A stretch of 64,000 bases of DNA from Ephemerocybe angulata (Eukaryota; Basidiomycota; Agaricomycetes; Agaricales; Psathyrellaceae). The stretch covers positions 186,001-250,000 of the forward strand of contig JAACJK010000063.1 in NCBI GenBank assembly GCA_013368325.1, written 5' to 3'. The position numbers and the translations under genes were made by a program. Below, piece by piece: positions 4,104 to 59,017 of the stretch. Under the pieces are notes generated by a model that did no database searches, was not told where the DNA came from, and worked only from the letters and a program-made list of their open reading frames with translations. Numbering within the stretch: the stretch's first letter is position 1; each line of letters begins with the position of its first letter.

Positions 4104-4986
4104 ATGGCCCTGCCTTTTCCCCCGGAGCTGCTGTTGATTATCTTCAACTTCGCGGTTCATACTTCCTACGACCCAGCGGACCAGCCTGACTCGCCATCGT
4201 TCGACATGAGCGTCGCTAGCGCTCTGGCAGATATTTGGGATGGACTCACTGGCATTCGCAAAGACACGGAATACCCTGAGTCACAGCTCCAGCCTGGCGT
4301 AATCGCACATACGACGAACCCATTCACACCGTTGCACATCAGCCATGTCTGTAAAGATTGGCGCGACATTGCATTTTCCGCCTCTGAGTTGTGGTCCTCG
4401 ATATATGTTGCGGACGGCATGGCCAGTGCCCCCCATCTTCTTGGACTCTGGCTGCAGAACTCGCGGTCGCAGCCTCTCGACATGGTCTTTCGCGACACTC
4501 CGAACGGATCAAGCGGTGACACTATCGTGGAGATGATACAAATGGCGGCAGAGCACAGCGTGCGGTGGAGGACGTTTAAAGTCAGGCTGCGTAGGCGGAG
4601 GCTGCCGATGGAGGAAGTCAAAAAGGCGCTTCATGGGATCGTAACTCCCCTTCTACAGACGCTCGCGTTCAGCTTCAACCCAACCGAGCTTGGAGGTACC
4701 CAATTCGATGACCTATGGACATCTCTAATCGCCAACGCGCCAAACCTGCAGGAGCTCCAGATGTGGTCGACGAAGTATTCGGAGGACTTCGTCTCATCGA
4801 TACCTTTTGACCACCTCACCTGCATCACCCTTGTCATGGTACGCTTCGAGGGCGGAACCCTCTTTTGGCAGGCCCTTCGCGGTTGCAACGTCCTGAGAAC
4901 ATTGGCAATATCATTCAGTCTTAGCCCGGGGGATTCGCCATGGCTCTTCACCCAACCTCCTTCGTCATCAGCAGCGGTTTCAATAC
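4104..4986 (+). pseudogene. F-box-like protein, 5' piece (interrupted)
   Basis: The ATG at 4104 (MALPFPPELLLIIFNFAVHT) opens an F-box-like domain. 'HISHVCKDWRDIAFSASELW' follows at about residues 87-106, as in the intact paralogue at 25285. The frame runs to AAVSI and is cut at the AATAC where the retrotransposon inserted. The gene continues at 15972. Without the insert, this would be a protein of about 525 residues like its paralogue, acting as an SCF-type adaptor. The ATG choice follows the paralogue, whose start also directly precedes '(I/F)P(S/P)ELLL'. Confidence 0.8.
4982..4986 (+). repeat. 5-bp target-site duplication (AATAC), left copy
   Basis: AATAC here and at 15972-15976 flank the TG...CA ends of the retrotransposon. 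The uninterrupted paralogue at 170 reads GATACCATCCC at this point, confirming a single ancestral copy. Confidence 0.9.
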
Positions 4987-5506
4987 TGCCGTGAACACCG
5001 GTCAGCCTACCTATTTTCTCTTCTTTTCCTTTCATTTCTTTCTTTACTATTCATTCGTGCGCATTCCTGCACACTCTTGCACACCTTTGCACACCCTTGC
5101 ACACCTTCACACTGCCTTCGCTCTTCTGAGCCTTCCCCTCACTTCATGCACAGCACGTTCACACCTTGTTCACACCTTTGTTCTCAGGCGCACTGCCCGC
5201 GCGCTGCCTTTTAGTCATATCGACTCATATGGACTCTATTGTTCTCTGGATCATTCTATTGTTCTATTTTCGTTCGAGATCATCTGGACACATATATACT
5301 CGTAGCTACTCGTTCATTATTCCCCACTTGATCTCTTTGACTATACAGGTACATAGTCGCTTCGCTCCTATTCCCTGTATTCTATTTACCTTTGACTATA
5401 CAGCTCTTGTATCTGCATCACTGCTCGTCGCTCGTCTGACCTCTGCTCCTCTGCTCTCTGCTCTCTGCTCGTCGCTCGTCCGACATCAGCCGGCGTCTTC
5501 GCCACA
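4987..5506 (+). repeat. 5' LTR (520 bp)
   Basis: It begins TGCCGTGAACACC and ends TTCGCCACA. Inside is a run of short TGCACAC-type repeats. Compared with the 3' LTR it lacks a 30-bp segment. Confidence 0.92.
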
Positions 5507-15408: not shown

Positions 15409-15420
15409 AGGAGGGGGGTA
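15409..15420 (+). other. polypurine tract
   Basis: AGGAGGGGGGTA lies directly before the 3' LTR, where plus-strand DNA synthesis is primed in LTR retrotransposons. Confidence 0.75.
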
Positions 15421-15421
15421 A

Positions 15422-15971
15422 TGTCGTGAACACCGGTCAGCCTACCTATTTTCTCTTCTTTTCCTTTCATTTCTTTCTTTACTATTCATTCGTGCGCATT
15501 CCTGCACACTCTTGCACACCTTTGCACACCCTTGCACACCTTCACACTGCCTTCGCTCTTCTGAGCCTTCCCCTCACTTCATGCACAGCACGTTCATGCT
15601 TCTTATTCTCGTGCACAGCACGTTCACACCTTGTTCACACCTTTGTTCTCAGGCGCACTGCCCGCGCGCTGCCTTTTAGTCATATCGACTCATATGGACT
15701 CTATTGTTCTCTGGATCATTCTATTGTTCTATTTTCGTTCGAGATCATCTGGACACATATATACTCGTAGCTACTCGTTCATTATTCCCCACTTGATCTC
15801 TTTGACTATACAGGTACATAGTCGCTTCGCTCCTATTCCCTGTATTCTATTTACCTTTGACTATACAGCTCTTGTATCTGCATCGCTGCTCGTCGCTCGT
15901 CCGACCTCTGCTCCTCTGCTCTCTGCTCTCTGCTCGTCGCTCGTCCGACATCAGCCGGCGTCTTCGCCACA
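15422..15971 (+). repeat. 3' LTR (550 bp)
   Basis: It begins TGTCGTGAACACC and ends TTCGCCACA. It is 30 bp longer than the 5' LTR because of an extra segment at about 15591-15620 that partly repeats GTGCACAGCACGTTCA. Confidence 0.92.
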
Positions 15972-16578
15972 AATACCATCCCTTCGTCACCTCCGTTTGA
16001 TAGGCGCTAGTGATCTATGCGTTCTTCTACTTGGCCTACATCTCCCCTCCCTCAGCTATCTTAGAATGCACACCCACCATACGCACCTCTGCTACATGAG
16101 GAGGCTCACCACCGACGTCTATATGGCCTTGGAGGACTTTCTAACCCGCTCCCAATGCAAGCTCCTTTCCTTCAAGATTAGAGATGAGAGAGAGGGCGGA
16201 TTCGAGATGAGAGAGAGGGCGGATTCGAGATGCGGGTGTCGCCTATTCTTCGCCATTTCGCCCTGCGAGACCTCGTGGAGTTGAGATTGGGCAGCGCCGT
16301 AGGGAAGAAAACCTTGGGTTTACTCGTCTATCGTCAAACGGGAGGTGGCCCCTTGCAATGTCTCAAACGTATTGAACTTGACGCCCTCCTTGCGGGTGAC
16401 AGGATCCCTTTCACGGGCCTTGTCACGGGAATGGCGGCGTCGAGGAGCTGTGATAGTAGGCCAGCGGTCAATTTGGCGTTCCTGGCGGTGGGATTCCTAT
16501 CGAGGACTCAGCTTATCCTTGAAATGCGGGCATGGAATAACTATATAGCAGAGGAAGGAGATCTGAAGGTCGACAAGG
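15972..16578 (+). pseudogene. F-box-like protein, middle piece
   Basis: This continues the gene that stops at 4986, after the second AATAC. It translates as 'IPSLRHLRLIGASDLC', then 'TTDVYMALEDFLTRSQCKL' and 'SFKIRDER'. A 23-bp tandem duplication (16182-16204 and 16205-16227) shifts the frame, and the rest reads on from 16228 (MRVSPILRHFALRDLVE). It ends at 'KVDKV', where the TTACGAGTCCGTTT terminus begins. The retrotransposon, the duplication and the second insertion each break this gene. The last 30 codons lie at 24931. Confidence 0.8.
16182..16227 (+). repeat. 23-bp tandem duplication (frameshifting)
   Basis: Two adjacent copies of AGATGAGAGAGAGGG plus CGGATTCG. The paralogues have one copy, so this is a later lesion. 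Confidence 0.9.
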
Positions 16579-16730
16579 TTACGAGTCCGTTTACGGAATC
16601 GTTATTGTAGGACCGGTTTTTGCGTGACGCCTATCGTTTTTGATGTTTGGTTCTTGTTGGTCGTTCCGCGCGTGATGTCCGCTCTGATCGGACTTTCGTT
16701 TCCTACCTCTGGGCTGGAGTGACGCCTATC

Positions 16731-16876
16731 TAGTCTCATCCCCATCCTCTCCCGCTGAAATTCGTCCCAATCGGGACTTCCCATCGTGAGAGTCTGGGCT
16801 CATACCAACGAACTTTGGAGGACATTGTCTTCGGTGTTCTCGGCGACCCTCGGGCATTTTTCCGAGGCTGATTTGG
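16731..16876 (+). repeat. 146-bp TIR, left end of copy 1
   Basis: Runs from TAGTCTCATCC to GGCTGATTTGG; identical by eye to the reverse complement of 22219-22364. Confidence 0.9.
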
Positions 16877-16955
16877 TCGCTAATTAGCTTATGTCATCGC
16901 ATTTACCATCCAATCAATCGTGTCTCTGTCCTGCCTCGTCCACTATCTTCTACTC

Positions 16956-19796
16956 ATGCATCGCTATCCCGTCCGTCGACACGCTGAAGGGCTACCAAGG
17001 CGCTCGGAAGATGACGAAGAATCGGATGCCCGAGCTACATCACCAGCAGCCCGTTCAACAATGGCTGAGTCGTCTTCTGCTGGAGGGTCTGATTGGAGTG
17101 AGGAGGAGGAAACACCGGGAGATTCAATGCACATGGAACTCTTGGGGGAACTCTTATTGAGTAGTGACGATGAAGATACCGACTACATGGATGAAACGGC
17201 ACCCGGAAAGCGTCGCCCCGCTATGACCAACGACCAGAAAGCGCGTGAAGTCCTCCAGTTCATGACCACCCTCCCCCGCTATTCCTTTCGCACCTTCCTC
17301 CTCTCTATATTCCAGTCTGGCGATCCTGTAATCAAGAAATTTGCCAATATATTCCTTTCCGATAACTCGCATCTGCAAGTCATGGATACGTGGTGGGATA
17401 GATGTGGTGGAATGACACGCACCCAGCCCACAAACCCGACTGCAGAGTGGGTGATCAACCGGGCAGCAACAGTTGTGTCTAAGGAAGCAAGCTGGCTCAC
17501 GGATCGAGCTTCGGAAGGCCCATTCTATGAAGATGCGAAGGCCCTGCGAGTCCCCGCTACCGATGTGTCCGTGAAGCTGGTCAACGACTTCCGAATCTAT
17601 GGTCTTTTGGCCAGGTATGAGAGAACAACACCTCATCTTCAGTCTATCCTCAAATCTGCGATCGGGAAGGTTGGGAAGGATGACAAGGAGGCGAAGGAAG
17701 GTACTAGGGATCCTGATGCAGTGCGTTTGTTTAGTTATCTTCTTGATATCCTTTCTAATTGCACGCAGGGCCGGACTCTCGCAACGTCGATTGTATTGAA
17801 CCTTCGCAGCCGAGTCACCAACTATCACGGCGTAATGAACTCGTTGCTGCTCTGGGATAACCGAGTACCCAAGCGCCTTGTTCAGACCCTCAATAACCTT
17901 GGGATGACCGTTTCGTATCCTGCTCAATGTCGAGCGGTTGCATCACTTAGCAAGAGTTCTGTCCAGCTTGCGCGAGAGGCGGCCAACGACCCGACGAAGA
18001 TCAAGATGTTTCCGTACGACAACTTCAACTGGATGAAGAAAACGTACGAAGCCTCAGCTACACATGGTTCAGTCCAACACGACGAAGTCTCGGCACTTCT
18101 TGTAATTCTCCCTACTCCCTCTGGTACCGCCACGGCAAAGGAGATAGTCGACATTGCTGCGTTTAAAGCACTCGAAGGCACTCGACACAACCTCCAGCCT
18201 CCTCAGAAGTCCCTTGAGGATATCATGCCTTCACTCGAGGATCACCACACATTTCGGCGCAATTGTATCTTGCACATAGCTCGGGCGCTTGTTGACGAAA
18301 TAAAATCCCTTTCCCATCTTTCATCACGTCTGCCCGAATTCGAGGATGTCCATGCAATGAAAGTCACGAAGACCGAAGAACACTATCTACCAACTTTCGA
18401 CCAAGAACAAGGCTCAACGAGGGGGAATATGGTTGTGCTTGAGCACTATTTTCAAGACGTCCTCGGCATACCAAAGGCAACATTTGAAGACACAATGTTC
18501 ACTGTGCTCGGCGACCGGCTCACCACTGCGCGTGACCGTGCAGCGCAAGATCAGCGTGCTGTCGACCGCTCGAAGGACCGCTTTGACCACCTCTCGTCGT
18601 TTGCGATGATCAGTGGACTCATGCATTATGGCTTGAACTTTATGAAGGCAATGGGAGGGAATTTCTGGGGTACGGCTCAGGACCCGGTGAGCCTGGCAGC
18701 ACTGCGAGACCAATTACCAAATCGCGAGAATGTTCAACCTCAGAAAGTCGACTACTACGCCTGGCAACGATTCCTCGACGTGATTATGCGAGGCTTAATG
18801 CTACGTGCATCCACTGTCCTGCTGCAAGCTTCCGGCCGCAAGGATTTGGAGGAGAAACTCGCTCCAATGGATCTACAGTCACTCCTTTCGCATGCAGCCC
18901 AGATTGTCGATAATTATGTCTTGCAATCTCCGAGCCGCCTAGAAGCCACTGGTGTCAAGAAAGTTCCGGGGAATAGCATCACGGGGAACGCAGTCCTCCT
19001 CTTCCACAGTATCATGACTGCGACGGAAATGCAGAGTGCGATAAAATTGGGCCACACGGGGAGAGTTGTCCGGGTCCTCAAGATATGGCTTCCGATGTTT
19101 TATGCTGCAGGGAGCTACAATTATGCAAACGAGACAATGGAGCTACTACACAACATTATACACGACTGGCCAAAGCCATACACCGACGTTGCCCGTGACG
19201 GAATGCTTGTAAACCCTCTGGGGAAGCGAACGGGCTTCAAACCAACCGATATTCGCGTCGAGCATCTCAACGATCGCATCAAGGAGAAAGCCCATGGCTC
19301 GAATGCAACACCGGAAGTCCTCGAAGTGATAACTCCTGCCATGGGTCACATCTCGCAGTTTACGGACCAGTTGTTTGAAGACCTCGGTGTTCAACTCCAG
19401 AATCAACACCATGCTCATGTACAGCAGCACCGCGACGTCCAGCTCGTTGCCGATCACCTTTCGACTCATCATGTTTTCAATTTCGCGCTTGACTCTCCTT
19501 CCTCCCATTCTGTGGTTGACCTCTTTGCAACTGGCCTTGTACGACTATCAGGAGAAAACGGCGGTCACGCAAAGCACCTACTACGACACAAACTCCGTCT
19601 TCGTACACGCCATACAACTGAAAGTGCCACAAGCACATCAGCTGCTGTGAGTGACACGGCAACCAGGGAGGCTTTCCGGGAATTGGAGACAGCGCGGGAT
19701 GCTCAGGTGGTCGATTATCAAGTTACTGAGAGACGGACTGAGCTGGAGGAGTTTGCTGAAGGATTGAATGATTACAACGACGTATTGGACAATTAA
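16956..19796 (+). CDS. DUF6589-like protein, putative transposase
   Basis: A 946-residue ORF without required introns, starting at the first ATG in frame. Residues 20-75 are acidic and low-complexity. The rest resembles proteins that agaric genomes label DUF6589 (my recollection of the family). Candidate catalytic acids for an RNase H-like core are Asp355 (YDNFNW), Asp520 (VLGDRLTTARD) and Glu726 (NYANETMEL). That assignment is inference. It is the only non-helicase gene inside 146-bp TIRs with a 9-bp TSD (copy 2), which argues that it is the transposase. It converges on the helicase gene. Its exact twin lies at 34008-36848. The function should be called putative. Confidence 0.65.
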   Translation: MHRYPVRRHAEGLPRRSEDDEESDARATSPAARSTMAESSSAGGSDWSEEEETPGDSMHMELLGELLLSSDDEDTDYMDETAPGKRRPAMTNDQKAREVLQFMTTLPRYSFRTFLLSIFQSGDPVIKKFANIFLSDNSHLQVMDTWWDRCGGMTRTQPTNPTAEWVINRAATVVSKEASWLTDRASEGPFYEDAKALRVPATDVSVKLVNDFRIYGLLARYERTTPHLQSILKSAIGKVGKDDKEAKEGTRDPDAVRLFSYLLDILSNCTQGRTLATSIVLNLRSRVTNYHGVMNSLLLWDNRVPKRLVQTLNNLGMTVSYPAQCRAVASLSKSSVQLAREAANDPTKIKMFPYDNFNWMKKTYEASATHGSVQHDEVSALLVILPTPSGTATAKEIVDIAAFKALEGTRHNLQPPQKSLEDIMPSLEDHHTFRRNCILHIARALVDEIKSLSHLSSRLPEFEDVHAMKVTKTEEHYLPTFDQEQGSTRGNMVVLEHYFQDVLGIPKATFEDTMFTVLGDRLTTARDRAAQDQRAVDRSKDRFDHLSSFAMISGLMHYGLNFMKAMGGNFWGTAQDPVSLAALRDQLPNRENVQPQKVDYYAWQRFLDVIMRGLMLRASTVLLQASGRKDLEEKLAPMDLQSLLSHAAQIVDNYVLQSPSRLEATGVKKVPGNSITGNAVLLFHSIMTATEMQSAIKLGHTGRVVRVLKIWLPMFYAAGSYNYANETMELLHNIIHDWPKPYTDVARDGMLVNPLGKRTGFKPTDIRVEHLNDRIKEKAHGSNATPEVLEVITPAMGHISQFTDQLFEDLGVQLQNQHHAHVQQHRDVQLVADHLSTHHVFNFALDSPSSHSVVDLFATGLVRLSGENGGHAKHLLRHKLRLRTRHTTESATSTSAAVSDTATREAFRELETARDAQVVDYQVTERRTELEEFAEGLNDYNDVLDN

Positions 19797-19844
19797 TTAA
19801 TGAAAGTGAAACACAGGAGGGCGGTAGAATAGTAATAGAATATA

Positions 19845-22087
19845 TTAACTTTGCTGTGATTGGAATTGGGAATGTGAAGAGCGTGAAGGGGTAGTAGTGG
19901 GTAAATCATTTGCCCAGCGGATGCTGGGATACGGAGCTGGCTCGGGAACGGTAGAAGGAATGACTGGAGCGAGATTTTGTACTGGTAAATTGGGGTGGGG
20001 AGTGTCGGATGCAAGGTCTGGGTAAAGCTCCAGCTTGATAGCTTGAATCTTCTGTAGGAGCGGCGGCGCGATGGCCGTGAAATGGGGTATATGGGCCTTC
20101 TTGTAAATGCAGTCCGTCGTCTTGATTGAATGTATCGTCTTAGCGAGTGCCGCAATATCTGCATCGCATATGAGATGGTCGGGACCGTAACTGAACCATT
20201 TATCCTTCCACTCGCGTGTCCATAGATCGAGCCTCCATGCCTTCAGCTTATCTATTGCAATGGCCTGCTGTGCTTCAGACGGTGGCGTCGGACCAGTAAC
20301 GGCTGGCGCTGCGACGGCTGGCGCAAGATTGGTGACTGGCATCCAAGTGAACGTGCGGATGTTGTTGAGGAGTGAAGGGTTGCAGCGAGAGCAACGCGCG
20401 CCGCATGGGATCGACAACCCAGGGTTCTCTAGCCATTTATTTGTTATCATCTCATAACAGGTGGTGTTAGAGCGAATGACATCCACCAAACCTGGGTCTT
20501 CGGAGCCAGGTGCAGCAAGAGAAGGGCCGGTTTCGGAAGATGCCATCGACTTCTCGACCAGGAGAATGCCGACCGCAGAATTCCCTGCTGTACGTGCACC
20601 CCTCCCACGCCGCTGCTCCCACTGAACCAAGGTCAGGTCCCTGCAGCAGTACTGAACGACCCGTTTGACATTAGGGAAGTCCATTCCCGCCCCCACCTTG
20701 TCCGTCGCAAAGAGAATTGAGATTGCGCCGGACATGAAATCCCGGGTACACGACTCTTGGTGGCTCGTTGACAGGCCAGCATGGAGAAGATCCACAAAAC
20801 CCGTGTCGAGAATACCCCGAGCCTCCATCCCTGCTTTACACCACCAGAATGCCTTCGTAATGCGCTCGATATCGTCACTATAGATGATGGTTTGAGGGAT
20901 TGATGCCGGATTTCCGTCGAGAGGAAAGATAAACACCAGGTCGTTGAACGAGATGATGTCAAATTGCATGAACTTGATAATTACAGATAGTTCGGCACGG
21001 AAGTTTCCTTTGTGTATTAGATAGTAGTTGGGCTTGAGACCGACACATGAAAGGAGTGATTGGCGGTAGATGGAGGGGAGCGTCGCGGAAAGCGCGATCA
21101 TTGGCACGTCGGATAGACCTGCAATTCGCCGAAGTAAATGGAGGCGAGCATACGCAGGCCGCCAGTGTTGGCTTTCATGCGGGGTGTGTGCTTCGTCGAG
21201 GTATACGCCAGAGAGTTGGGCTTTGAAGGATTCGGAGTGGAGGAGATTGGCGAAGGTGGGGGTTTCGAGCATCTCGGCACAGACATACACAACAAACATG
21301 CCGGCCCCGCGCGCGATCTCCTCTAACAGCCCACGGCTCTTATTCTTCGAGTGGACAAACCGACTCTTGAGTTTAGTACCAGCGAACCTATGTGTTGCAT
21401 AGCCGTCAGCTCGATGTTTACTGTAGATAAGTGGTAATTGACTCACCGAAGCTCCCCTTGATGTCCCAAGCTTGTGTACGGCACAATCACCAGTGAGACG
21501 CCGGTTCCTTGGGCAAGCAGTGGCAAGACCCACACCAGCGACTTGCCTGACCCCGTTGGTGACACGACGCAGAGGTCCCGATCACGATTAACGATGTGGT
21601 TGGCTGCTTCGACTTGGAAATCCTTGAGGGACTGGTCCTGGCGCAGCACGCCGTGCTCTCGCGCGAGCTTGTTCCATTCGTGCTCCTCGAGATTTCCCAT
21701 CGAGGTCAGCTGGGCAAACTGAGCGAACGTAAACGGGGCAAGTTTTGAACGTCCCCGATTCGCGCCAGTGTACACTCCCTTCGTCGATGGCTTGACATTG
21801 GGATCTTGCAGAAAACCGTTGACGTAGATTGGGCGTTGCTTCTTCTTTGGTGCGGAAGATTGAAATAAGGGTGTTGCGAGCGGCGTGAGGGGTGCAAATG
21901 GGACTCCTGGGCGTGTTATAGGTGTCGGTGTGCTTGGTGCGAAGGGTATGTCGAGTAGGGGACCTCCAGGAGTGGATTGTGGGGTTGGGAGGTTGGGACG
22001 GGGTGGTACATTCTCTTTGGCGGGATCCCATGGTACTGTGCGTCGTCTTTTGCTCGGAGGTTCATTCAAAGGAGTGGAAGGGTTCAT
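19845..22087 (-). CDS. RecQ-like DNA helicase of the transposon
   Basis: Two exons on the minus strand, 22087-21447 and 21387-19845, with a 59-bp intron; 727 aa. The N-terminal 110 residues are Pro-rich with a basic patch (PPSKRRRTVPW). The helicase core has Walker A SPTGSGKS (residues 176-183), DEAH-type motif II (YLDEAHTP), motif III (ALSATLP), a C-terminal domain 'FATDKVGAGMDFPNVKRVVQ' and motif VI 'QWEQRRGRGART'. A Cys pair set (CGARCSRC) follows, as in the zinc-binding part of RecQ proteins. ATP-dependent 3'-5' unwinding is the family activity. Being encoded inside the transposon, it may help in transposition or gap repair. Confidence 0.8.
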
Positions 22088-22218
22088 TGGCGCGAAATTT
22101 TGAAGGATAGAGTGGTATTAGAGCATGGATTATAGTACAGAGGTGGTGTAAAGAGACAGGAGGTGCGACGCGACGACTTTGGCGCGTCGAAATCAGCTTA
22201 GTCATACCTCCGTCTCAG

Positions 22219-22364
22219 CCAAATCAGCCTCGGAAAAATGCCCGAGGGTCGCCGAGAACACCGAAGACAATGTCCTCCAAAGTTCGTTGGTATGAGCCCA
22301 GACTCTCACGATGGGAAGTCCCGATTGGGACGAATTTCAGCGGGAGAGGATGGGGATGAGACTA
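22219..22364 (-). repeat. 146-bp TIR, right end of copy 1
   Basis: Reverse complement of 16731-16876; ends GGGGATGAGACTA. It contains an ATG-started open frame that runs out into the flank. Confidence 0.9.
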
Positions 22365-30360: not shown

Positions 30361-30369
30361 GGACCTTCC
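30361..30369 (+). repeat. 9-bp TSD of the composite transposon, left
   Basis: GGACCTTCC; repeated exactly at 37074-37082 on the other side. Confidence 0.9.
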
Positions 30370-30646
30370 TAGTCTCATCCCCATCCTCTCCCGCTGAAAT
30401 TCGTCCCAATCGGGACTTCCCATCGTGAGAGTCTGGGCTCATACCAACGAACTTTGGAGGACATTGTCTTCGGTGTTCTCGGCGACCCTCGGGCATTTTT
30501 CCGAGGCTGATTTGGCTGAGACGGAGGTATGACTAAGCTGATTTCGACGCGCCAAAGTCGTCGCGTCGCACCTCCTGTCTCTTTACACCACCTCTGTACT
30601 ATAATCCATGCTCTAATACCACTCTATCCTTCAAAATTTCGCGCCA

Positions 30647-31004
30647 ATGAACCCTTCCACTCCTTTGAATGAACCTCCGAGCAAAAGACGACGCACAGTA
30701 CCATGGGATCCCGCCAAAGAGAATGTACCACCCCGTCCCAACCTCCCAACCCCACAATCCACTCCTGGAGGTCCCCTACTCGACATACCCTTCGCACCAA
30801 GCACACCGACACCTATAACACGCCCAGGAGTCCCATTTGCACCCCTCACGCCGCTCGCAACACCCTTATTTCAATCTTCCGCACCAAAGAAGAAGCAACG
30901 CCCAATGCACACCGACACCTATAACACGCCCAGGAGTCCCATTTGCACCCCTCACGCCGCTCGCAACACCCTTATTTCAATCTTCCGCACCAAAGAAGAA
31001 GCAA
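30647..31004 (+). pseudogene. truncated helicase 5' copy with internal duplication
   Basis: It starts exactly like the helicase gene (MNPSTPLNEPPSKRRR). After 'KKKQRP', a segment starting GCACACCGACACC (30801-30906) is repeated at 30907-31004. It then runs into the F-box fragment. It cannot make a helicase. Confidence 0.85.
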
Positions 31005-31439
31005 GCCGTAGGGAAGAAAACCTTGGGTTTACTCGTCTATCGTCAAACGGGAGGTGGCCCCTTGCAATGTCTCAAACGTATTGAACTTGACGCCCTCCTT
31101 GCGGGTGACAGGATCCCTTTCACGGGCCTTGTCACGGGAATGGCGGCGTCGAGGAGCTGTGATAGTAGGCCAGCGGTCAATTTGGCGTTCCTGGCGGTGG
31201 GATTCCTATCGAGGACTCAGCTTATCCTTGAAATGCGGGCATGGAATAACTATATAGCAGAGGAAGGAGATCTGAAGGTCGACAAGGTTACGAGTCCGTT
31301 TACGGAATCGTTATTGTAGGACCGGTTTTTGCGTGACGCCTATCGTTTTTGATGTTTGGTTCTTGTTGGTCGTTCCGCGCGTGATGTCCGCTCTGATCGG
31401 ACTTTCGTTTCCTACCTCTGGGCTGGAGTGACGCCTATC
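31005..31439 (+). pseudogene. captured F-box gene fragment plus insertion edge
   Basis: Identical by eye to 16296-16730. It includes the C-terminal F-box codons, the TTACGAGTCCGTTT terminus and about 140 bp beyond. So capture happened after the F-box gene had already been interrupted by the TIR-bounded insertion. Confidence 0.9.
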
Positions 31440-31585
31440 TAGTCTCATCCCCATCCTCTCCCGCTGAAATTCGTCCCAATCGGGACTTCCCATCGTGAGA
31501 GTCTGGGCTCATACCAACGAACTTTGGAGGACATTGTCTTCGGTGTTCTCGGCGACCCTCGGGCATTTTTCCGAGGCTGATTTGG
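31440..31585 (+). repeat. inner 146-bp TIR of copy 2
   Basis: TAGTCTCATCC start, preceded by ACGCCTATC exactly as in copy 1. Together with the TIRs at 30370 and at 36928-37073, copy 2 has three. Confidence 0.9.
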
Positions 31586-31716
31586 CTGAGACGGAGGTAT
31601 GACTAAGCTGATTTCGACGCGCCAAAGTCGTCGCGTCGCACCTCCTGTCTCTTTACACCACCTCTGTACTATAATCCATGCTCTAATACCACTCTATCCT
31701 TCAAAATTTCGCGCCA

Positions 31717-33959
31717 ATGAACCCTTCCACTCCTTTGAATGAACCTCCGAGCAAAAGACGACGCACAGTACCATGGGATCCCGCCAAAGAGAATGTACCA
31801 CCCCGTCCCAACCTCCCAACCCCACAATCCACTCCTGGAGGTCCCCTACTCGACATACCCTTCGCACCAAGCACACCGACACCTATAACACGCCCAGGAG
31901 TCCCATTTGCACCCCTCACGCCGCTCGCAACACCCTTATTTCAATCTTCCGCACCAAAGAAGAAGCAACGCCCAATCTACGTCAACGGTTTTCTGCAAGA
32001 TCCCAATGTCAAGCCATCGACGAAGGGAGTGTACACTGGCGCGAATCGGGGACGTTCAAAACTTGCCCCGTTTACGTTCGCTCAGTTTGCCCAGCTGACC
32101 TCGATGGGAAATCTCGAGGAGCACGAATGGAACAAGCTCGCGCGAGAGCACGGCGTGCTGCGCCAGGACCAGTCCCTCAAGGATTTCCAAGTCGAAGCAG
32201 CCAACCACATCGTTAATCGTGATCGGGACCTCTGCGTCGTGTCACCAACGGGGTCAGGCAAGTCGCTGGTGTGGGTCTTGCCACTGCTTGCCCAAGGAAC
32301 CGGCGTCTCACTGGTGATTGTGCCGTACACAAGCTTGGGACATCAAGGGGAGCTTCGGTGAGTCAATTACCACTTATCTACAGTAAACATCGAGCTGACG
32401 GCTATGCAACACATAGGTTCGCTGGTACTAAACTCAAGAGTCGGTTTGTCCACTCGAAGAATAAGAGCCGTGGGCTGTTAGAGGAGATCGCGCGCGGGGC
32501 CGGCATGTTTGTTGTGTATGTCTGTGCCGAGATGCTCGAAACCCCCACCTTCGCCAATCTCCTCCACTCCGAATCCTTCAAAGCCCAACTCTCTGGCGTA
32601 TACCTCGACGAAGCACACACCCCGCATGAAAGCCAACACTGGCGGCCTGCGTATGCTCGCCTCCATTTACTTCGGCGAATTGCAGGTCTATCCGACGTGC
32701 CAATGATCGCGCTTTCCGCGACGCTCCCCTCCATCTACCGCCAATCACTCCTTTCATGTGTCGGTCTCAAGCCCAACTACTATCTAATACACAAAGGAAA
32801 CTTCCGTGCCGAACTATCTGTAATTATCAAGTTCATGCAATTTGACATCATCTCGTTCAACGACCTGGTGTTTATCTTTCCTCTCGACGGAAATCCGGCA
32901 TCAATCCCTCAAACCATCATCTATAGTGACGATATCGAGCGCATTACGAAGGCATTCTGGTGGTGTAAAGCAGGGATGGAGGCTCGGGGTATTCTCGACA
33001 CGGGTTTTGTGGATCTTCTCCATGCTGGCCTGTCAACGAGCCACCAAGAGTCGTGTACCCGGGATTTCATGTCCGGCGCAATCTCAATTCTCTTTGCGAC
33101 GGACAAGGTGGGGGCGGGAATGGACTTCCCTAATGTCAAACGGGTCGTTCAGTACTGCTGCAGGGACCTGACCTTGGTTCAGTGGGAGCAGCGGCGTGGG
33201 AGGGGTGCACGTACAGCAGGGAATTCTGCGGTCGGCATTCTCCTGGTCGAGAAGTCGATGGCATCTTCCGAAACCGGCCCTTCTCTTGCTGCACCTGGCT
33301 CCGAAGACCCAGGTTTGGTGGATGTCATTCGCTCTAACACCACCTGTTATGAGATGATAACAAATAAATGGCTAGAGAACCCTGGGTTGTCGATCCCATG
33401 CGGCGCGCGTTGCTCTCGCTGCAACCCTTCACTCCTCAACAACATCCGCACGTTCACTTGGATGCCAGTCACCAATCTTGCGCCAGCCGTCGCAGCGCCA
33501 GCCGTTACTGGTCCGACGCCACCGTCTGAAGCACAGCAGGCCATTGCAATAGATAAGCTGAAGGCATGGAGGCTCGATCTATGGACACGCGAGTGGAAGG
33601 ATAAATGGTTCAGTTACGGTCCCGACCATCTCATATGCGATGCAGATATTGCGGCACTCGCTAAGACGATACATTCAATCAAGACGACGGACTGCATTTA
33701 CAAGAAGGCCCATATACCCCATTTCACGGCCATCGCGCCGCCGCTCCTACAGAAGATTCAAGCTATCAAGCTGGAGCTTTACCCAGACCTTGCATCCGAC
33801 ACTCCCCACCCCAATTTACCAGTACAAAATCTCGCTCCAGTCATTCCTTCTACCGTTCCCGAGCCAGCTCCGTATCCCAGCATCCGCTGGGCAAATGATT
33901 TACCCACTACTACCCCTTCACGCTCTTCACATTCCCAATTCCAATCACAGCAAAGTTAA
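31717..33959 (+). CDS. RecQ-like helicase, copy 2
   Basis: Exons 31717-32357 and 32417-33959; 727 aa, with the same protein sequence as the copy at 19845-22087. Walker A SPTGSGKS, YLDEAHTP, ALSATLP and QWEQRRGRGART are all intact. It is expected to be an ATP-dependent DNA helicase serving the transposon. It converges on the DUF6589-like gene. No lesion was seen. Confidence 0.8.
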
Positions 33960-34007
33960 TATATTCTATTACTATTCTACCGCCCTCCTGTGTTTCACTT
34001 TCATTAA

Positions 34008-36848
34008 TTAATTGTCCAATACGTCGTTGTAATCATTCAATCCTTCAGCAAACTCCTCCAGCTCAGTCCGTCTCTCAGTAACTTGATAATCGACCACCTG
34101 AGCATCCCGCGCTGTCTCCAATTCCCGGAAAGCCTCCCTGGTTGCCGTGTCACTCACAGCAGCTGATGTGCTTGTGGCACTTTCAGTTGTATGGCGTGTA
34201 CGAAGACGGAGTTTGTGTCGTAGTAGGTGCTTTGCGTGACCGCCGTTTTCTCCTGATAGTCGTACAAGGCCAGTTGCAAAGAGGTCAACCACAGAATGGG
34301 AGGAAGGAGAGTCAAGCGCGAAATTGAAAACATGATGAGTCGAAAGGTGATCGGCAACGAGCTGGACGTCGCGGTGCTGCTGTACATGAGCATGGTGTTG
34401 ATTCTGGAGTTGAACACCGAGGTCTTCAAACAACTGGTCCGTAAACTGCGAGATGTGACCCATGGCAGGAGTTATCACTTCGAGGACTTCCGGTGTTGCA
34501 TTCGAGCCATGGGCTTTCTCCTTGATGCGATCGTTGAGATGCTCGACGCGAATATCGGTTGGTTTGAAGCCCGTTCGCTTCCCCAGAGGGTTTACAAGCA
34601 TTCCGTCACGGGCAACGTCGGTGTATGGCTTTGGCCAGTCGTGTATAATGTTGTGTAGTAGCTCCATTGTCTCGTTTGCATAATTGTAGCTCCCTGCAGC
34701 ATAAAACATCGGAAGCCATATCTTGAGGACCCGGACAACTCTCCCCGTGTGGCCCAATTTTATCGCACTCTGCATTTCCGTCGCAGTCATGATACTGTGG
34801 AAGAGGAGGACTGCGTTCCCCGTGATGCTATTCCCCGGAACTTTCTTGACACCAGTGGCTTCTAGGCGGCTCGGAGATTGCAAGACATAATTATCGACAA
34901 TCTGGGCTGCATGCGAAAGGAGTGACTGTAGATCCATTGGAGCGAGTTTCTCCTCCAAATCCTTGCGGCCGGAAGCTTGCAGCAGGACAGTGGATGCACG
35001 TAGCATTAAGCCTCGCATAATCACGTCGAGGAATCGTTGCCAGGCGTAGTAGTCGACTTTCTGAGGTTGAACATTCTCGCGATTTGGTAATTGGTCTCGC
35101 AGTGCTGCCAGGCTCACCGGGTCCTGAGCCGTACCCCAGAAATTCCCTCCCATTGCCTTCATAAAGTTCAAGCCATAATGCATGAGTCCACTGATCATCG
35201 CAAACGACGAGAGGTGGTCAAAGCGGTCCTTCGAGCGGTCGACAGCACGCTGATCTTGCGCTGCACGGTCACGCGCAGTGGTGAGCCGGTCGCCGAGCAC
35301 AGTGAACATTGTGTCTTCAAATGTTGCCTTTGGTATGCCGAGGACGTCTTGAAAATAGTGCTCAAGCACAACCATATTCCCCCTCGTTGAGCCTTGTTCT
35401 TGGTCGAAAGTTGGTAGATAGTGTTCTTCGGTCTTCGTGACTTTCATTGCATGGACATCCTCGAATTCGGGCAGACGTGATGAAAGATGGGAAAGGGATT
35501 TTATTTCGTCAACAAGCGCCCGAGCTATGTGCAAGATACAATTGCGCCGAAATGTGTGGTGATCCTCGAGTGAAGGCATGATATCCTCAAGGGACTTCTG
35601 AGGAGGCTGGAGGTTGTGTCGAGTGCCTTCGAGTGCTTTAAACGCAGCAATGTCGACTATCTCCTTTGCCGTGGCGGTACCAGAGGGAGTAGGGAGAATT
35701 ACAAGAAGTGCCGAGACTTCGTCGTGTTGGACTGAACCATGTGTAGCTGAGGCTTCGTACGTTTTCTTCATCCAGTTGAAGTTGTCGTACGGAAACATCT
35801 TGATCTTCGTCGGGTCGTTGGCCGCCTCTCGCGCAAGCTGGACAGAACTCTTGCTAAGTGATGCAACCGCTCGACATTGAGCAGGATACGAAACGGTCAT
35901 CCCAAGGTTATTGAGGGTCTGAACAAGGCGCTTGGGTACTCGGTTATCCCAGAGCAGCAACGAGTTCATTACGCCGTGATAGTTGGTGACTCGGCTGCGA
36001 AGGTTCAATACAATCGACGTTGCGAGAGTCCGGCCCTGCGTGCAATTAGAAAGGATATCAAGAAGATAACTAAACAAACGCACTGCATCAGGATCCCTAG
36101 TACCTTCCTTCGCCTCCTTGTCATCCTTCCCAACCTTCCCGATCGCAGATTTGAGGATAGACTGAAGATGAGGTGTTGTTCTCTCATACCTGGCCAAAAG
36201 ACCATAGATTCGGAAGTCGTTGACCAGCTTCACGGACACATCGGTAGCGGGGACTCGCAGGGCCTTCGCATCTTCATAGAATGGGCCTTCCGAAGCTCGA
36301 TCCGTGAGCCAGCTTGCTTCCTTAGACACAACTGTTGCTGCCCGGTTGATCACCCACTCTGCAGTCGGGTTTGTGGGCTGGGTGCGTGTCATTCCACCAC
36401 ATCTATCCCACCACGTATCCATGACTTGCAGATGCGAGTTATCGGAAAGGAATATATTGGCAAATTTCTTGATTACAGGATCGCCAGACTGGAATATAGA
36501 GAGGAGGAAGGTGCGAAAGGAATAGCGGGGGAGGGTGGTCATGAACTGGAGGACTTCACGCGCTTTCTGGTCGTTGGTCATAGCGGGGCGACGCTTTCCG
36601 GGTGCCGTTTCATCCATGTAGTCGGTATCTTCATCGTCACTACTCAATAAGAGTTCCCCCAAGAGTTCCATGTGCATTGAATCTCCCGGTGTTTCCTCCT
36701 CCTCACTCCAATCAGACCCTCCAGCAGAAGACGACTCAGCCATTGTTGAACGGGCTGCTGGTGATGTAGCTCGGGCATCCGATTCTTCGTCATCTTCCGA
36801 GCGCCTTGGTAGCCCTTCAGCGTGTCGACGGACGGGATAGCGATGCAT
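34008..36848 (-). CDS. DUF6589-like putative transposase, copy 2
   Basis: Minus-strand ORF of 946 residues from ATG 36848, identical in predicted sequence to the one at 16956-19796. That includes the candidate acidic residues in YDNFNW, LGDRLTTARD and NYANETMEL. Intact frames in both copies suggest recent activity. The function as transposase is inferred from position inside TIRs and a TSD. Confidence 0.65.
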   Translation of the reverse strand: MHRYPVRRHAEGLPRRSEDDEESDARATSPAARSTMAESSSAGGSDWSEEEETPGDSMHMELLGELLLSSDDEDTDYMDETAPGKRRPAMTNDQKAREVLQFMTTLPRYSFRTFLLSIFQSGDPVIKKFANIFLSDNSHLQVMDTWWDRCGGMTRTQPTNPTAEWVINRAATVVSKEASWLTDRASEGPFYEDAKALRVPATDVSVKLVNDFRIYGLLARYERTTPHLQSILKSAIGKVGKDDKEAKEGTRDPDAVRLFSYLLDILSNCTQGRTLATSIVLNLRSRVTNYHGVMNSLLLWDNRVPKRLVQTLNNLGMTVSYPAQCRAVASLSKSSVQLAREAANDPTKIKMFPYDNFNWMKKTYEASATHGSVQHDEVSALLVILPTPSGTATAKEIVDIAAFKALEGTRHNLQPPQKSLEDIMPSLEDHHTFRRNCILHIARALVDEIKSLSHLSSRLPEFEDVHAMKVTKTEEHYLPTFDQEQGSTRGNMVVLEHYFQDVLGIPKATFEDTMFTVLGDRLTTARDRAAQDQRAVDRSKDRFDHLSSFAMISGLMHYGLNFMKAMGGNFWGTAQDPVSLAALRDQLPNRENVQPQKVDYYAWQRFLDVIMRGLMLRASTVLLQASGRKDLEEKLAPMDLQSLLSHAAQIVDNYVLQSPSRLEATGVKKVPGNSITGNAVLLFHSIMTATEMQSAIKLGHTGRVVRVLKIWLPMFYAAGSYNYANETMELLHNIIHDWPKPYTDVARDGMLVNPLGKRTGFKPTDIRVEHLNDRIKEKAHGSNATPEVLEVITPAMGHISQFTDQLFEDLGVQLQNQHHAHVQQHRDVQLVADHLSTHHVFNFALDSPSSHSVVDLFATGLVRLSGENGGHAKHLLRHKLRLRTRHTTESATSTSAAVSDTATREAFRELETARDAQVVDYQVTERRTELEEFAEGLNDYNDVLDN

Positions 36849-36927
36849 GAGTAGAAGATAGTGGACGAGGCAGGACAGAGACACGATTGATTGGATGGTA
36901 AATGCGATGACATAAGCTAATTAGCGA

Positions 36928-37073
36928 CCAAATCAGCCTCGGAAAAATGCCCGAGGGTCGCCGAGAACACCGAAGACAATGTCCTCCAAAGTTCGTTGGT
37001 ATGAGCCCAGACTCTCACGATGGGAAGTCCCGATTGGGACGAATTTCAGCGGGAGAGGATGGGGATGAGACTA
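36928..37073 (-). repeat. 146-bp TIR, right end of copy 2
   Basis: Ends GGGGATGAGACTA, followed directly by the TSD GGACCTTCC at 37074-37082. Confidence 0.9.
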
Positions 37074-37082
37074 GGACCTTCC

Positions 37083-53385: not shown

Positions 53386-53910
53386 GTGAGTGTGGTGGGT
53401 GGTTCATGACTGTTATGATTACGACTTTTGGAGATGCCTATACCTGATACCGAATTTGATATCCTTTTTCTTTTCGAAGGTCGAGCGACTGTTCTTTTTT
53501 GTCGTTATGCCTGCGGAGTGGTCACTGGTCCCCATCGTTTCTGATGTGGGGGTCGGGACATGGTTGGGTCCGTGTCGATCTCAAGGTATGTGAATTTACG
53601 CCCCGGTGATTTGGTAAAAGCGGTCGACATTTTGGGGTATGGGACAGTGGGATAGATGCAACATTCGGTGGGGCAGGTCTTCTTCTATTGCTGATAAAGC
53701 TAAAGTTGAAAGGGTAGGCCGTGAAGCCGTTCAATTTGATTATGAAGCAGCTTACTAACTAGAAACTGGAAGCGCTGAGAGACTGTGCCGGGAGGGTATA
53801 TAATGCCTCAGTTCACTCCCGTATCTCATCAACGGAAAGGCCTTGTTTCCTATCCACTCAAGCTTAACTCGACACCAACACCACTACATACCAATCCTTT
53901 TCACTGCACG
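53386..53910. other. intergenic with GST promoter
   Basis: Contains the GST1 promoter: a 16-bp box GATTATGAAGCAGCTT at 53738-53753 and TATATAA at 53797-53803. Confidence 0.6.
53738..53803 (+). promoter_or_regulatory. GST1 promoter: conserved 16-bp box and TATA
   Basis: GATTATGAAGCAGCTT, then GGGAGGGTATATAA 59 bp on. The same pair occurs before GST2 and GST3. Confidence 0.65.
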
Positions 53911-54693
53911 ATGATCACCCTCTTCGACATTCCATGCACCCTTTCCGTCTCGTGGTCGGCCAACGCATGGAAGACGCGGTTCACCCTCAATTATAAACGT
54001 ATCCCATACAAGACGGAGTGGGTCGAATACCCCGACATCGAGGCCGTGCTCAAGAAACATAACATAGGACCGACGGGCACGAAGGGGGACGGGACGCCCT
54101 ACTACAGTCTCCCCGCGATCCTGGACGTCGACGACGCTACTGGTGAAATCAAGGCTGCGCTCGCGGATTCCTTCCATATCGCGGCGTACCTCGACAAGGC
54201 GTACCCTGATACCCCTCGCGTTTTGCCGGAGGATAAAGAGGGGGTGGAAGAGCAAAAGGCGTTTGCGGACGGGATTCTGTGGGACATTATGCCTCTTTTG
54301 ACGATTATGTTCAAGGCGGCGTTGCCAGTGCTGAACGAGGGCAGTCGGGAGTACTTCTCGAAGGCGCGCGCGATGAATTTGTTTCCGGTGTATGGGGTGC
54401 ATAGGTTGGAGGATATCCCGTATGGCGAGGAGGAGAGGAGGGTACTGTGGAAGAATTCGGAGGTGTGTTTTGGGAAGTTGGAGGAGAAGCTAAAGGTGGC
54501 GAAGGCGGATGAGGGTGTTTGGTTTAAGGGCAGCAGGATTACCTTTGCGGATTTTGTGGTTGGAGGAGTTTTGATTTTGATTAGGACGGTTCTGGGAGAG
54601 AGTAGTGAGGAGTGGGGGAGAATTAGCGCGTGGAATGGGGGGAAGTGGGGGAGGTTTTTGGAAGGGCTGAAGGAATACGACACTGCCGTTTAG
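53911..54693 (+). CDS. glutathione S-transferase, LigE/etherase-like (GST1)
   Basis: A 260-residue intronless ORF; the start ATG (MITLFDIPCTL) matches its paralogues. The thioredoxin-like N-terminal domain has 'NAWKTRFTLNYKRIPYKTEW', where this class binds glutathione, then 'SLPAILDVDD' and a Ser/Asp 'ADSFHIAAYLDKAYPDTPRV'. An all-helical C-terminal domain ends 'WGRFLEGLKEYD'. Relatives of bacterial LigE and fungal GTE enzymes conjugate or deglutathionylate aromatic compounds, often wood-derived. The enzyme is likely cytosolic. It is the first of three close intronless paralogues. Confidence 0.8.
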   Translation: MITLFDIPCTLSVSWSANAWKTRFTLNYKRIPYKTEWVEYPDIEAVLKKHNIGPTGTKGDGTPYYSLPAILDVDDATGEIKAALADSFHIAAYLDKAYPDTPRVLPEDKEGVEEQKAFADGILWDIMPLLTIMFKAALPVLNEGSREYFSKARAMNLFPVYGVHRLEDIPYGEEERRVLWKNSEVCFGKLEEKLKVAKADEGVWFKGSRITFADFVVGGVLILIRTVLGESSEEWGRISAWNGGKWGRFLEGLKEYDTAV

Positions 54694-55130
54694 ATTTGCG
54701 ATATCTACCAAAGAAGTCTGTATCGATTCTTTCAATTTGATTAACTGTGTCAAGTCGTTCGGATGACCTGTGCTGTAGTAGATACGACCCCAAAAGTTGA
54801 TCGAGTTATCTGAGAACCGATAAAGGCTAATCCCGACTGCACCACTAGAGCGCTATTCTATATTGATGCGCTCGCTTCACCTTCTCGCACGGGTCTAAGG
54901 CTTGTCTTGAAAGTGGGAAAGTCAGAAACGGTGAGGCCGTGTAGGTCGCCGAAGGTTGATCATCAAGCCGTTTGTTACCCGGATAATAGAAGCAACGGCC
55001 ACAGTACCATGTGGGAGGGTATATAAAGACTACGTAGGTTTACCACTGCATCTAATGCAACGGCCTCTGTGCATCCCCCTCAAATCAGACTCATCCTAGG
55101 AGGCCAAGTCCCAACACCTTTCCCTACGCG
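54694..55130. other. intergenic with GST2 promoter
   Basis: Includes a stretch around 54838 (ATCCCGACTGCACCACTAGAGC) that is also seen in variant form before GST3, showing that upstream DNA was duplicated together with the genes. Confidence 0.55.
54958..55027 (+). promoter_or_regulatory. GST2 promoter: box and TATA
   Basis: GATCATCAAGCCGTTT, a diverged version of the 16-bp box, then GTGGGAGGGTATATAAAG 62 bp on. Confidence 0.6.
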
Positions 55131-55907
55131 ATGATCACCTTCTTCGACATTCCTTCTACCCTCCCTGCTAACGCGTGGTCACTCAACACATGGAGGATAC
55201 GGTTCACACTCAACTATAAACGCATCCCATACAAGACGGAGTGGGTCGAGTACCCCGACATTGCGGCCGTGCTAAAGAAACACGGTATCGGGCCCACGGA
55301 CGAGAATCGGGACGGGACGACCTACTACAGTGTACCCGCTATCTTGGACGTCGACGATACCACCGGCGAAGTCAAGGCTGCGCTTGCGGACTCCATCCCT
55401 ATCGCGGAATACCTCGAAAAGGTGTATCCGGCAACTCCTCGCGTTTTTCCGGAGGACGAAGAGGGACTGGAGGAGCAGAAAGCCTTCAGAGTATTGAGGG
55501 AGATGGTCCCCATTTTCACGATTATGTGTAAGGCGACACTGCCGGTGCTGAACGAGGCGAGTCGGGACCACTTTTCGAAGGCGCGCGCGATGGATTTGTA
55601 TGAGCTGTATGAGGTGGATAGGTTGGAGGATGTCCCGTATGGCGAAGAGGAGAAGAGAGTGTTGTGGAGAGATTTGGAGGTATGTTTTGGGAAGTTGGAT
55701 GAGAAAGTGGCGAAGACGGATGGGGCTGGTGTTTGGTTTAAGGGCGACAGGATTACGTTTGCGGACTTTGTGATTGGGGGAGTTTTGATTTGGATGAGGA
55801 CGATCCTTGGGGAAAACAGTGAGGAGTGGGCCAGAGTTAGCCCGTGGAATGGGGGAAGGTGGGGGAGGTTTTTGGAAGGGTTGAAGGATTACGAAACTGT
55901 CATTTAG
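55131..55907 (+). CDS. glutathione S-transferase, LigE/etherase-like (GST2)
   Basis: A 258-residue intronless paralogue of GST1. The N-terminal segment reads 'NTWRIRFTLNYKRIPYKTEW', so the usual Lys-Thr after the Trp is Arg-Ile; this may affect glutathione binding. 'SVPAILDVDD' and 'ADSIPIAEYLEKVYPATPRV' follow, and the C-terminus is 'WGRFLEGLKDYETVI'. The ATG was chosen by match to GST1 and GST3. Probably a cytosolic detoxification enzyme. Confidence 0.8.
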   Translation: MITFFDIPSTLPANAWSLNTWRIRFTLNYKRIPYKTEWVEYPDIAAVLKKHGIGPTDENRDGTTYYSVPAILDVDDTTGEVKAALADSIPIAEYLEKVYPATPRVFPEDEEGLEEQKAFRVLREMVPIFTIMCKATLPVLNEASRDHFSKARAMDLYELYEVDRLEDVPYGEEEKRVLWRDLEVCFGKLDEKVAKTDGAGVWFKGDRITFADFVIGGVLIWMRTILGENSEEWARVSPWNGGRWGRFLEGLKDYETVI

Positions 55908-56269
55908 ATTAGCGATATGTCCCAAAGAACTTTGAAGTAGTAGTGATCAACGGGCGCTTATGTTTTCAGAAATGATAGCTAAACAGGCAATCATGGATGG
56001 GAGGGAAGCGTGGGCGGTCGTGTAGACAGTCCAATACGGGGTTCAAGGAGTCTCTACTCAGGTAGCACATGTAATTGTTCAACGGGCGCCTATCACATTC
56101 GGCTGTTTCCATTTGATTGAATATGTGTAACCCGACTCCAAGCCAATGCCTTTGATTAGGAGGATTAGCCTATCCTGAGTGTTCAGAGAGTGTCTTCTCA
56201 TGAGCCGCGCGCCCGGTCAAACACCCTAAGGTTCATTGGAAGGCAATCAGTTTGAGAAAAAAAAGAATG
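55908..56269. other. intergenic
   Basis: Holds CGGGCGCTTATG (55951) and GGGCGCCTAT (56084) motifs about 130 bp apart, both in the same orientation. Confidence 0.5.
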
Positions 56270-56631
56270 TCATGGCTCGAATCTCACGACAGCCTCGCAT
56301 AACGATTGAACGGCCAAAAGGCTAGTCAGGATATCTGCCCCTTCGCACTTCTTGGAGATGCAGCGGTTCAGTTGATTAATGAAAGCGCCGTTGAGGCACA
56401 GACAACGATTGTCTGTGAGAGCACATCCTGTCGCCTGGATGTCGGCTTGTGCTATACACGTCGTGGTACAGGCTGGGGACAAATTGGTGAGTAAGGCAAT
56501 AACAACGTTCAGCACTACGGGTGGGCGTTACCTGAAAGTTGTCTCTTGGTAGGGAGAAAGGTACTCATGCAGATTGCCGGAAGGACGACCACGGGGAGGA
56601 TGATAGAAGACGGGGCGATGAAAAAGCGCAT
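56270..56631 (-). CDS. CFEM-domain secreted protein 1
   Basis: Exon 1 56631-56532 and exon 2 56472-56270; 100 aa. A signal peptide leads (MRFFIAPSSIILPVVVLPAI). The CFEM domain follows with eight Cys: 'ACTTTCIAQ', 'GCALTDNRCLCLNGAFI', 'LNRCISKKCEG' and 'LCEAV'. The Asp in CALTDNRCLC matches the position that binds haem iron in known CFEM proteins. CFEM proteins act at the cell surface in haem/iron uptake or as host-interaction factors. No GPI-type tail is visible, so it is probably secreted. Its paralogue is at 59018-59351. Confidence 0.8.
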
Positions 56632-58016
56632 TTTTATACACAACTCAGACGGGGGACGAGGATGTAAGAAGCTGTAAAGGTCAAGGGTGTTATATAGAAG
56701 TTGAAATGGCACAGCCTGATCGGAATATTGAGTGTCCTGTGGCTCACTTGGGAGCGCTCAGCGAGACGCTTCTTGTGATCATGGGAGTCATTGAGACGCA
56801 AAGCATCACAACGATCTCCTTCTGAAGATTCTGCGTATGAATTGTAACGTAAAGTGTGTAGGCAAACGAATTCATTTTGAAGACATCCTGGCATGAGCCA
56901 TGAGCCATGGCCTGGCATATCATGTTGGGGCTTTTATGCTGGCTGGAACCTGCATGGCTCCAACCACGCTGCCGCTGGAATGGAGGTCACGGTGGGCCAA
57001 TAAAGGAATGAACATGGTCACAATCTATTTAGATGCGGGGTATATGGGTATTAGTGTGATTTTGCGATGATCGGTAGTCCGTCGTGGTCGAACCTGATGT
57101 AGATGGTTGACTACCAGGTTGGCATTACAGCACGCTACGGGGAGGGTATTAAGTTACATAGTGAGGAAATGCCTCGTTTCCCAACTCTGAAGGACTGTCT
57201 TGTAGTCAATGTCAGATGGACAGTTTACGGCGGTCGGCAAGAGAACGCGATGGTAGAGCGGCGGACTCAGAGTTTTAACGCTGTGGCAGTACTTGCCATC
57301 TGGCCCTCCCACCTCTCCTCCTCGTACCTGTAATCAGTAGCTTAGATTAGATCTCCTCTGATGGGATCATGTATCAGTGTAGACGACGTCCGCCGCCTGC
57401 GCGCCGAGAATGGATAATCGAACCTTGGCCCTTGCTCGCCTGCTCGACGCATTTCCCAGCTCATTGTCGCCTTGGACTACTCCTACGAGCCAATTTGTTT
57501 GAAGATTGGCTGACCATGTTTTCTACCCCGTTAACCGCGGAGGCGGTCGTCGGATGCGTCGATCTGAGCCGTTTGCGTCTTGGCGCTTGGTAAGTGGGAT
57601 CGTCCTTGTGGGGGAAATCTCTCCCCAGCCCCGCAATTTTCGGCGGCCCGCCTGCGGCGGGACTACCAAAAATAGTAATTGTCACGCCGTTCGGGGCTCC
57701 GGTTCCTTGTTTTCGCCCTCACAAAAGTGTCAGGGTCCAGATCTGGTTCCTTCTCTACAGTCCAGTATTCTATCTAAATGCCGATAATGGCAACCCCGAC
57801 TGCGCCGCTAGAACTTGTCTTGTGACACGATTGTTATCTGGAGAGCCGCATTATCATAGCCCGAAATTGATTATGAAGCAGCTTGAAAATAGAAGCGAGG
57901 GTCGGTGCCATGTGGGGGCGGTATATAAAGGAATCATGCACCTGACACCCAACAGCTTTGTTTCCTCCACCCACATAACTCGATACCGAGACCAACTTAA
58001 CCCCTTTCACGACGCG
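56632..58016. other. intergenic with GST3 promoter
   Basis: No gene recognised before the GST3 promoter. A CCCGCCTGCGGCGGG hairpin is near 57648. The 16-bp box and TATA are annotated separately. Confidence 0.5.
57869..57930 (+). promoter_or_regulatory. GST3 promoter: conserved 16-bp box and TATA
   Basis: GATTATGAAGCAGCTT, identical to the GST1 box, then GGTATATAAAG 53 bp on and 87 bp before the ATG. Confidence 0.65.
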
Positions 58017-58799: not shown

Positions 58800-59017
58800 A
58801 TTAGTGGTGTCTCCGATGAGGTCTGCATTCATCAAATTAAAGGAAGCAGATGTATGAAGTAGTTTCGAAAGACTACCCGGCCAAAGGTTGATCAGTACAC
58901 TAAAGCCTAGAATTCGAGTTGGGAGATAAACCGACATGTGCGCTAATCTTTTCTGGCAGGTATCGATCCTTTTCTGGATCACATCAACGACTCAATGACT
59001 GAGATAGCACTTACAGC

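Follow-up and report, generated by a model that had tools for sequence, protein, structure and literature searches.

The window analysed here, a stretch of 64,000 bp (bases 186001–250000 of contig C77 in the 58.7 Mb assembly of what is taken to be Ephemerocybe angulata, of the Agaricales, family Psathyrellaceae), carries two complete copies of an element that is likely to be an autonomous DNA transposon of the AcademH type, with a protein of the DUF6589 family as its putative DDE transposase and a RecQ-like helicase as a co-inherited partner. This reading is built on the anatomy of the element, its recurrence across the genome, target site duplications (TSDs) of 9 bp, the pairing of the two genes and the identity of the two copies, together with the predicted fold of the DUF6589 protein.

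Copies of the element and related insertions

Copy 1 (16731–22364, plus strand) spans 5,634 bp without TSD and ends in terminal inverted repeats (TIRs) of 146 bp each, the left one (16731–16876, plus strand) beginning with TAGTCTC and the right one (22219–22364, minus strand) being its perfect complement (100%). Between them lie the DUF6589 gene and the gene for the RecQ-like helicase, convergent and both apparently intact, which confirmed the description given by a sequence-only reading of this DNA. Copy 2 (31440–37073, minus strand) is inverted with respect to copy 1 and identical to it over all 5,634 bp. In addition, a palindromic mini-element of 105 bp at C134:578662–578766 (L008) carries the ends of the window element, with 58 bp identical, and is flanked by the 9-bp TSD CTATGGCGT. 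The identical copies and this identical-ended mini-element point to recent movement and suggest that the window element is a recently active DNA transposon, so that it may serve as a test system for helicase function in DNA transposition. Palindromic matches like the mini-element were also found at C117:2037474–2037586 and C22:385119–385225.

The sequence-only reading had assigned a clean 9-bp TSD to the second copy. The duplication does exist (GGACCTTCC, at 30361–30369 and 37074–37082, both on the plus strand), but it flanks a composite of 6,704 bp (30370–37073, unstranded) and not copy 2 alone. This composite begins with a helicase-end fragment of 635 bp (30370–31004, plus strand), formed by a TIR and the 5′ part of the helicase gene and including a tandem duplication of 106 bp (30793–30898 and 30899–31004, plus strand), continues with 435 bp of host DNA (31005–31439, plus strand) that match 16296–16730, directly to the left of copy 1, without any difference, and ends with the full copy 2. 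The composite may have moved as one unit, or it may have arisen in place from a simple insertion that was remodelled when a gap was repaired with template switching.

Related elements were sought by pairing YAGNCTC starts with GAGNCTR ends located 900–9,000 bp apart, which gave 374 pairs in 38 regions (several element ends fall outside these regions), and duplications of 7 to 13 bp were tested. An exact 9-bp duplication was present in 8 of the 374 pairs, with no match at any other length within that range, and random pairs in the same 38 regions gave an exact 9-bp match in 1 of 74,800 cases. These eight correspond to the window composite and to seven elements elsewhere, four of which contain both DUF6589 and helicase in convergent orientation (C121, 5,841 bp; C125, 5,775 bp; C146, 5,462 bp; C154, 5,844 bp). 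Compared with the database copy of the window protein, their DUF6589 segments were about 21% identical in C121 and 31% in C154 and, in two pieces each, 24% and 42% in C125 and 58% and 39% in C146. The other three were an element with a helicase fragment (C152, 2,466 bp), one with a helicase but no DUF6589 match (C18, 3,024 bp), and a deletion derivative with the start of DUF6589 (C120, 1,204 bp). The 9-bp duplications vary in sequence, and the element termini read TA... or CA.... Because the short derivatives have 9-bp duplications, the data imply that the element proteins could act in trans. The designation as a DNA transposon made in the earlier reading is supported.

A stricter first scan, requiring eight perfect terminal bases, had detected five elements at 9 bp, compared with eight in the end-motif scan. 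The 8- and 10-bp duplications of that first scan were not counted, as they were self-complementary words in longer inverted repeats, and neither was one 8-bp pair at C86 (20 of 60 TIR matches) that is not such a word.

The DUF6589 protein as putative transposase

The DUF6589 gene (16956–19796, plus strand) starts with an ATG at 16956, and its product matches D9611_011724 of E. angulata at 98% identity. PF20231 (E = 7.3e-96) was the sole Pfam family reported for it at E ≤ 1. A stretch of 48 bp within the gene (17721–17768, plus strand) is probably an in-frame intron, because it has the form GT...AG and the 16 residues that it encodes are missing in aligned homologues; the reading frame is open either spliced or unspliced.

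By its predicted fold and conserved triad, this protein is very probably the DDE transposase of the element, in support of the candidate put forward from the sequence alone. The predicted structure contains an RNase-H core interrupted by a helical domain, and the three residues named in advance as a possible triad are predicted to lie where a DDE triad belongs, with D355 (codon at 18018–18020) in strand 1 near its end, D520 (18513–18515) just after strand 4, and E726 (19131–19133) in the helix behind the insertion, all codons being on the plus strand. Among solved structures, the best matches of the core were the Hermes and P-element transposases, at sequence identities of about 8% and 9%, respectively. 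The likeness to Hermes, in which a helical insertion likewise divides the RNase-H core, would indicate a similar way of working and not membership. hAT and P elements generate TSDs of 8 bp, in contrast to the 9 bp found here, DUF6589 has no hAT Pfam domain, and neither Hermes nor the Drosophila P element is known to carry a helicase. When a viral library was searched by fold, a hAT-like protein of a Pandoravirus was the single match at E ≤ 0.001. The DUF6589 profile gave 27 pattern matches on viral contigs, with no relative among them, and no match at E ≤ 1 among the sequences of solved structures.

The sequence-only reading had also pointed to a Mutator-like resemblance. Mutator-like elements (MULEs) have long TIRs and 9-bp TSDs, as do the elements described here, and DUF6589 could then be a diverged MULE transposase. 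We consider this very improbable, as no MULE domain was found by Pfam at E ≤ 1, on which ground MuDR/MULE was rejected. The likely place of the C/DxxH signature, located between the second D and the E of MULE transposases according to PMC9587614, reads GLMH in DUF6589 (G in 29 and H in 30 of the 31 sequences of alignment A1). This alignment comprises the window protein and 30 of 69 homologues, and a second one (A2, 30 sequences) comprises the window core and 29 of the 69.

Protein searches, which reach only relatives having short exact words in common, yielded these 69 homologues and, with a divergent alignment, 131, with no animal name among the 120 listed of the latter. The organism-named matches all belong, as we presume from their genera, to the Agaricomycetes. 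DUF6589 was not named in the literature searched, where PF20231 turned up only in unrelated optics work, and its assignment as a DDE transposase seems to be the part that is new. The family is unannotated and recurrent in mushroom genomes (39 loci in E. angulata), and naming it as a DDE transposase would make many “hypothetical proteins” readable as transposons.

The helicase and its pairing with DUF6589

The gene for the RecQ-like superfamily 2 helicase (19845–22087, minus strand) consists of two exons separated by an intron of 59 bp (21388–21446, minus strand), and its spliced product has 727 residues. The sequences GSGKS, DEAH, SAT and QRRGR, which we take to be helicase motifs, are readable in it. 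The profile search proposed in the sequence-only reading, which identified PF20231 in the first protein, reported DEAD and Helicase_C in the window helicase and in five relatives, and no RQC or HRDC Pfam domain in any of them. P0101, the helicase encoded in C146, matched RECQ5 (E = 1.4e-14) and E. coli RecQ (E of about 1e-14) among solved structures, as well as the RecQ-family entry TIGR00614 (E = 7.2e-25) at a score under the NCBIfam cut-offs. Judged from sequence, the window helicase is RecQ-like, sharing the helicase core with RecQ-family members and differing from them in these sub-threshold scores and in having no accessory domains that Pfam can name.

The helicase stretch 19845–21533 is 90% identical over 497 residues to P0070 of Crassisporium funariophilum, a mushroom of a different family from E. 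angulata, whereas the remaining helicase matches are at most 54% identical. This high identity, together with the fact that 38 of the 49 differences between P0070 and the window helicase are explicable by C-to-T/G-to-A changes alone, suggests a recent horizontal transfer followed by decay in Crassisporium resembling repeat-induced point mutation.

Across the genome, matches grouped into 39 DUF6589 loci and 36 helicase loci. A helicase was present within 6 kb of 27 of the former, and a DUF6589 neighbour was assigned for 26 of the latter. None of the pairs was on the same strand, 20 of them being convergent and 7 divergent (19 and 8 before the hand correction of one C86 locus, whose nearest helicase belonged to its tandem neighbour). 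The divergent pairs were found on C114, C125 (3.00 Mb), C143, C144 (two) and C24 (two), with L011, L012 and L015–L017 among their labels, and the tandem at C86:812409–820334 (L034, L035, L061, L062) consists of two DUF6589/helicase units 4,282 bp apart. Among 50 helicase homologues from other fungi, 16 lay, by hand count, on contigs exactly as long as a contig bearing a DUF6589 match from the set of 69, with neighbouring locus tags in two of the 16 (EST38_g13408/13409 and H0H93_015956/015957). The distances among DUF6589 proteins and among helicases were correlated over 17 pairs including that of the window (Mantel r = 0.856), a value reached in none of 10,000 permutations; in this test, the window was represented by database entry P0001 for DUF6589 and by the second exon only for the helicase. 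Part of this correlation may come from species relatedness, and it was also present among four pairs from Cyathus striatus, within one species.

Of the two roles left open in the sequence-only reading, passenger or partner, these results favour the partner. The two genes need not be in cis, since C18 (helicase, no DUF6589 match), the C120 derivative and the C134 mini-element have 9-bp TSDs, which would suit a helicase that is a mere passenger picked up by the element, as would the DUF6589 loci (12 of 39) without a helicase neighbour. Nevertheless, pairing at 27 of the 39 loci, the co-variation of distances, and the retention of pairs where DUF6589 segments are only about 21–31% identical to that of the window make such a passenger distinctly unlikely, and it was rejected on pairing and co-variation.

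Class membership and flanking sequences

Judging from its anatomy, the window element is most likely a member of the Academ superfamily, within its AcademH lineage. AcademH was described by Kojima in 2020 as helicase-bearing, with TSDs of 9 or 10 bp that are related to the encoded helicase, according to the consulted part of PMC10045372; it has been found in Basidiomycota and other fungi, according to that of PMC10799480, and also in animals, going by a title in the reference list of PMC10045372. Similarly, the elements described here showed 9-bp TSDs (eight elements and the mini-element), an encoded helicase with DEAD and Helicase_C domains, a putative DDD/E transposase by predicted fold and conserved triad, and a host within the Basidiomycota. 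In view of the 2020 description, the earlier suggestion of a poorly described transposon class is not supported.

As a transposon of the AcademH type, the element would move through binding of the DUF6589 transposase to the long TIRs, cleavage at the TAGTCTC/GAGACTA ends by the putative D355-D520-E726 active site, placed in a hAT/P-like RNase-H fold with a helical insertion, and insertion of the cut ends into the target at positions staggered by 9 bp. For the RecQ-like helicase, the most likely role would be to unwind DNA in transposition, or in the repair of gaps at the donor and target.

A different classification would make these elements a separate, unnamed superfamily, with DUF6589 as a distinct type of DDE transposase, a helicase acquired independently of AcademH, and a 9-bp TSD that is coincidental. 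The literature searched documents no DUF6589–Academ link, and the organism-named matches, presumably all Agaricomycetes by genus, would fit it, as AcademH is said to reach animals. However, the protein searches were limited to relatives sharing short exact words, and the combination of helicase, 9-bp TSD and Basidiomycota is that of AcademH as reported in the consulted parts of its sources, so that we regard a separate superfamily as unlikely. It is equally doubtful that the DUF6589/RecQ elements constitute a distinct superfamily in which a hAT/P-like DDE transposase works with a dedicated helicase; were this true, the helicase would drive unwinding while the element transposes, and perhaps even its copying. 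Such a role would account for the repeated pairing of the genes as well as for the composite at 30370–37073, with its read-through flank and template switches.

KolobokH, a fungal lineage of Kolobok with a RecQ helicase (PMC9587614, in the part consulted), resembles the window element in its helicase and its fungal host. Kolobok duplications are 4-bp TTAA and the termini 5′-RR...YY-3′ in that same part of PMC9587614, in contrast to the 9-bp TSDs without fixed sequence and the TA/CA ends of the window-type elements, and the helicase is encoded here by a separate convergent gene. KolobokH is scarcely credible on these grounds and was ruled out by the TSDs and termini. Helitrons have neither TIRs nor TSDs, and they were ruled out by the long TIRs and TSDs of the element.

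Several observations weigh against the assignment to AcademH with DUF6589 as transposase. The likeness to AcademH is one of anatomy and description, and DUF6589 is not named in the literature searched. The flanks of copy 1 (ACGCCTATC and TCTTCAGCA) show no duplication, nor does C151, a complete element 99.98% identical to C154 over 5,849 bp. By hand count, a TSD was present in 5 of the 14 regions with both genes, although some of the nine without it extend past the stretch examined. The terminal similarity of the TIRs is weak in C121 (8/12) and C154 (7/12), no helicase was found within 6 kb of 12 of the 39 DUF6589 loci, and the column of E726 is occupied by H in the C125 element. Finally, the full-length DUF6589 protein gave no Foldseek match at E ≤ 0.001 (best, 7.5e-3), which is why its core was modelled alone. 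The joint recurrence of TIRs, 9-bp TSD and both genes, put forward as a check in the sequence-only reading, was found in C121, C125, C146 and C154, but does not extend to the loci without helicase or to copy 1 and C151.

Regarding copy 1, part of its left flank (16577–16730) is another repeat, with seven further matches of 91–97% identity outside the window and additional ones below this range. One such match, on C147, continues unbroken past the insertion point of copy 1, and the right flank has an element-free relative on C67, 91% identical. The flanks of copy 1 therefore seem to have separate origins in the genome, a pattern that recombination between copies would produce.

Elsewhere in the window, direct repeats 99% identical and about 10.5 kb apart were found at 5144–5443 and 15609–15908, adjoined by a second pair at 4984–5161 and 15419–15596. 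In addition, region 53785–58826 contains three related stretches, starting at 53951, 55174 and 58060, which look like a local gene family.
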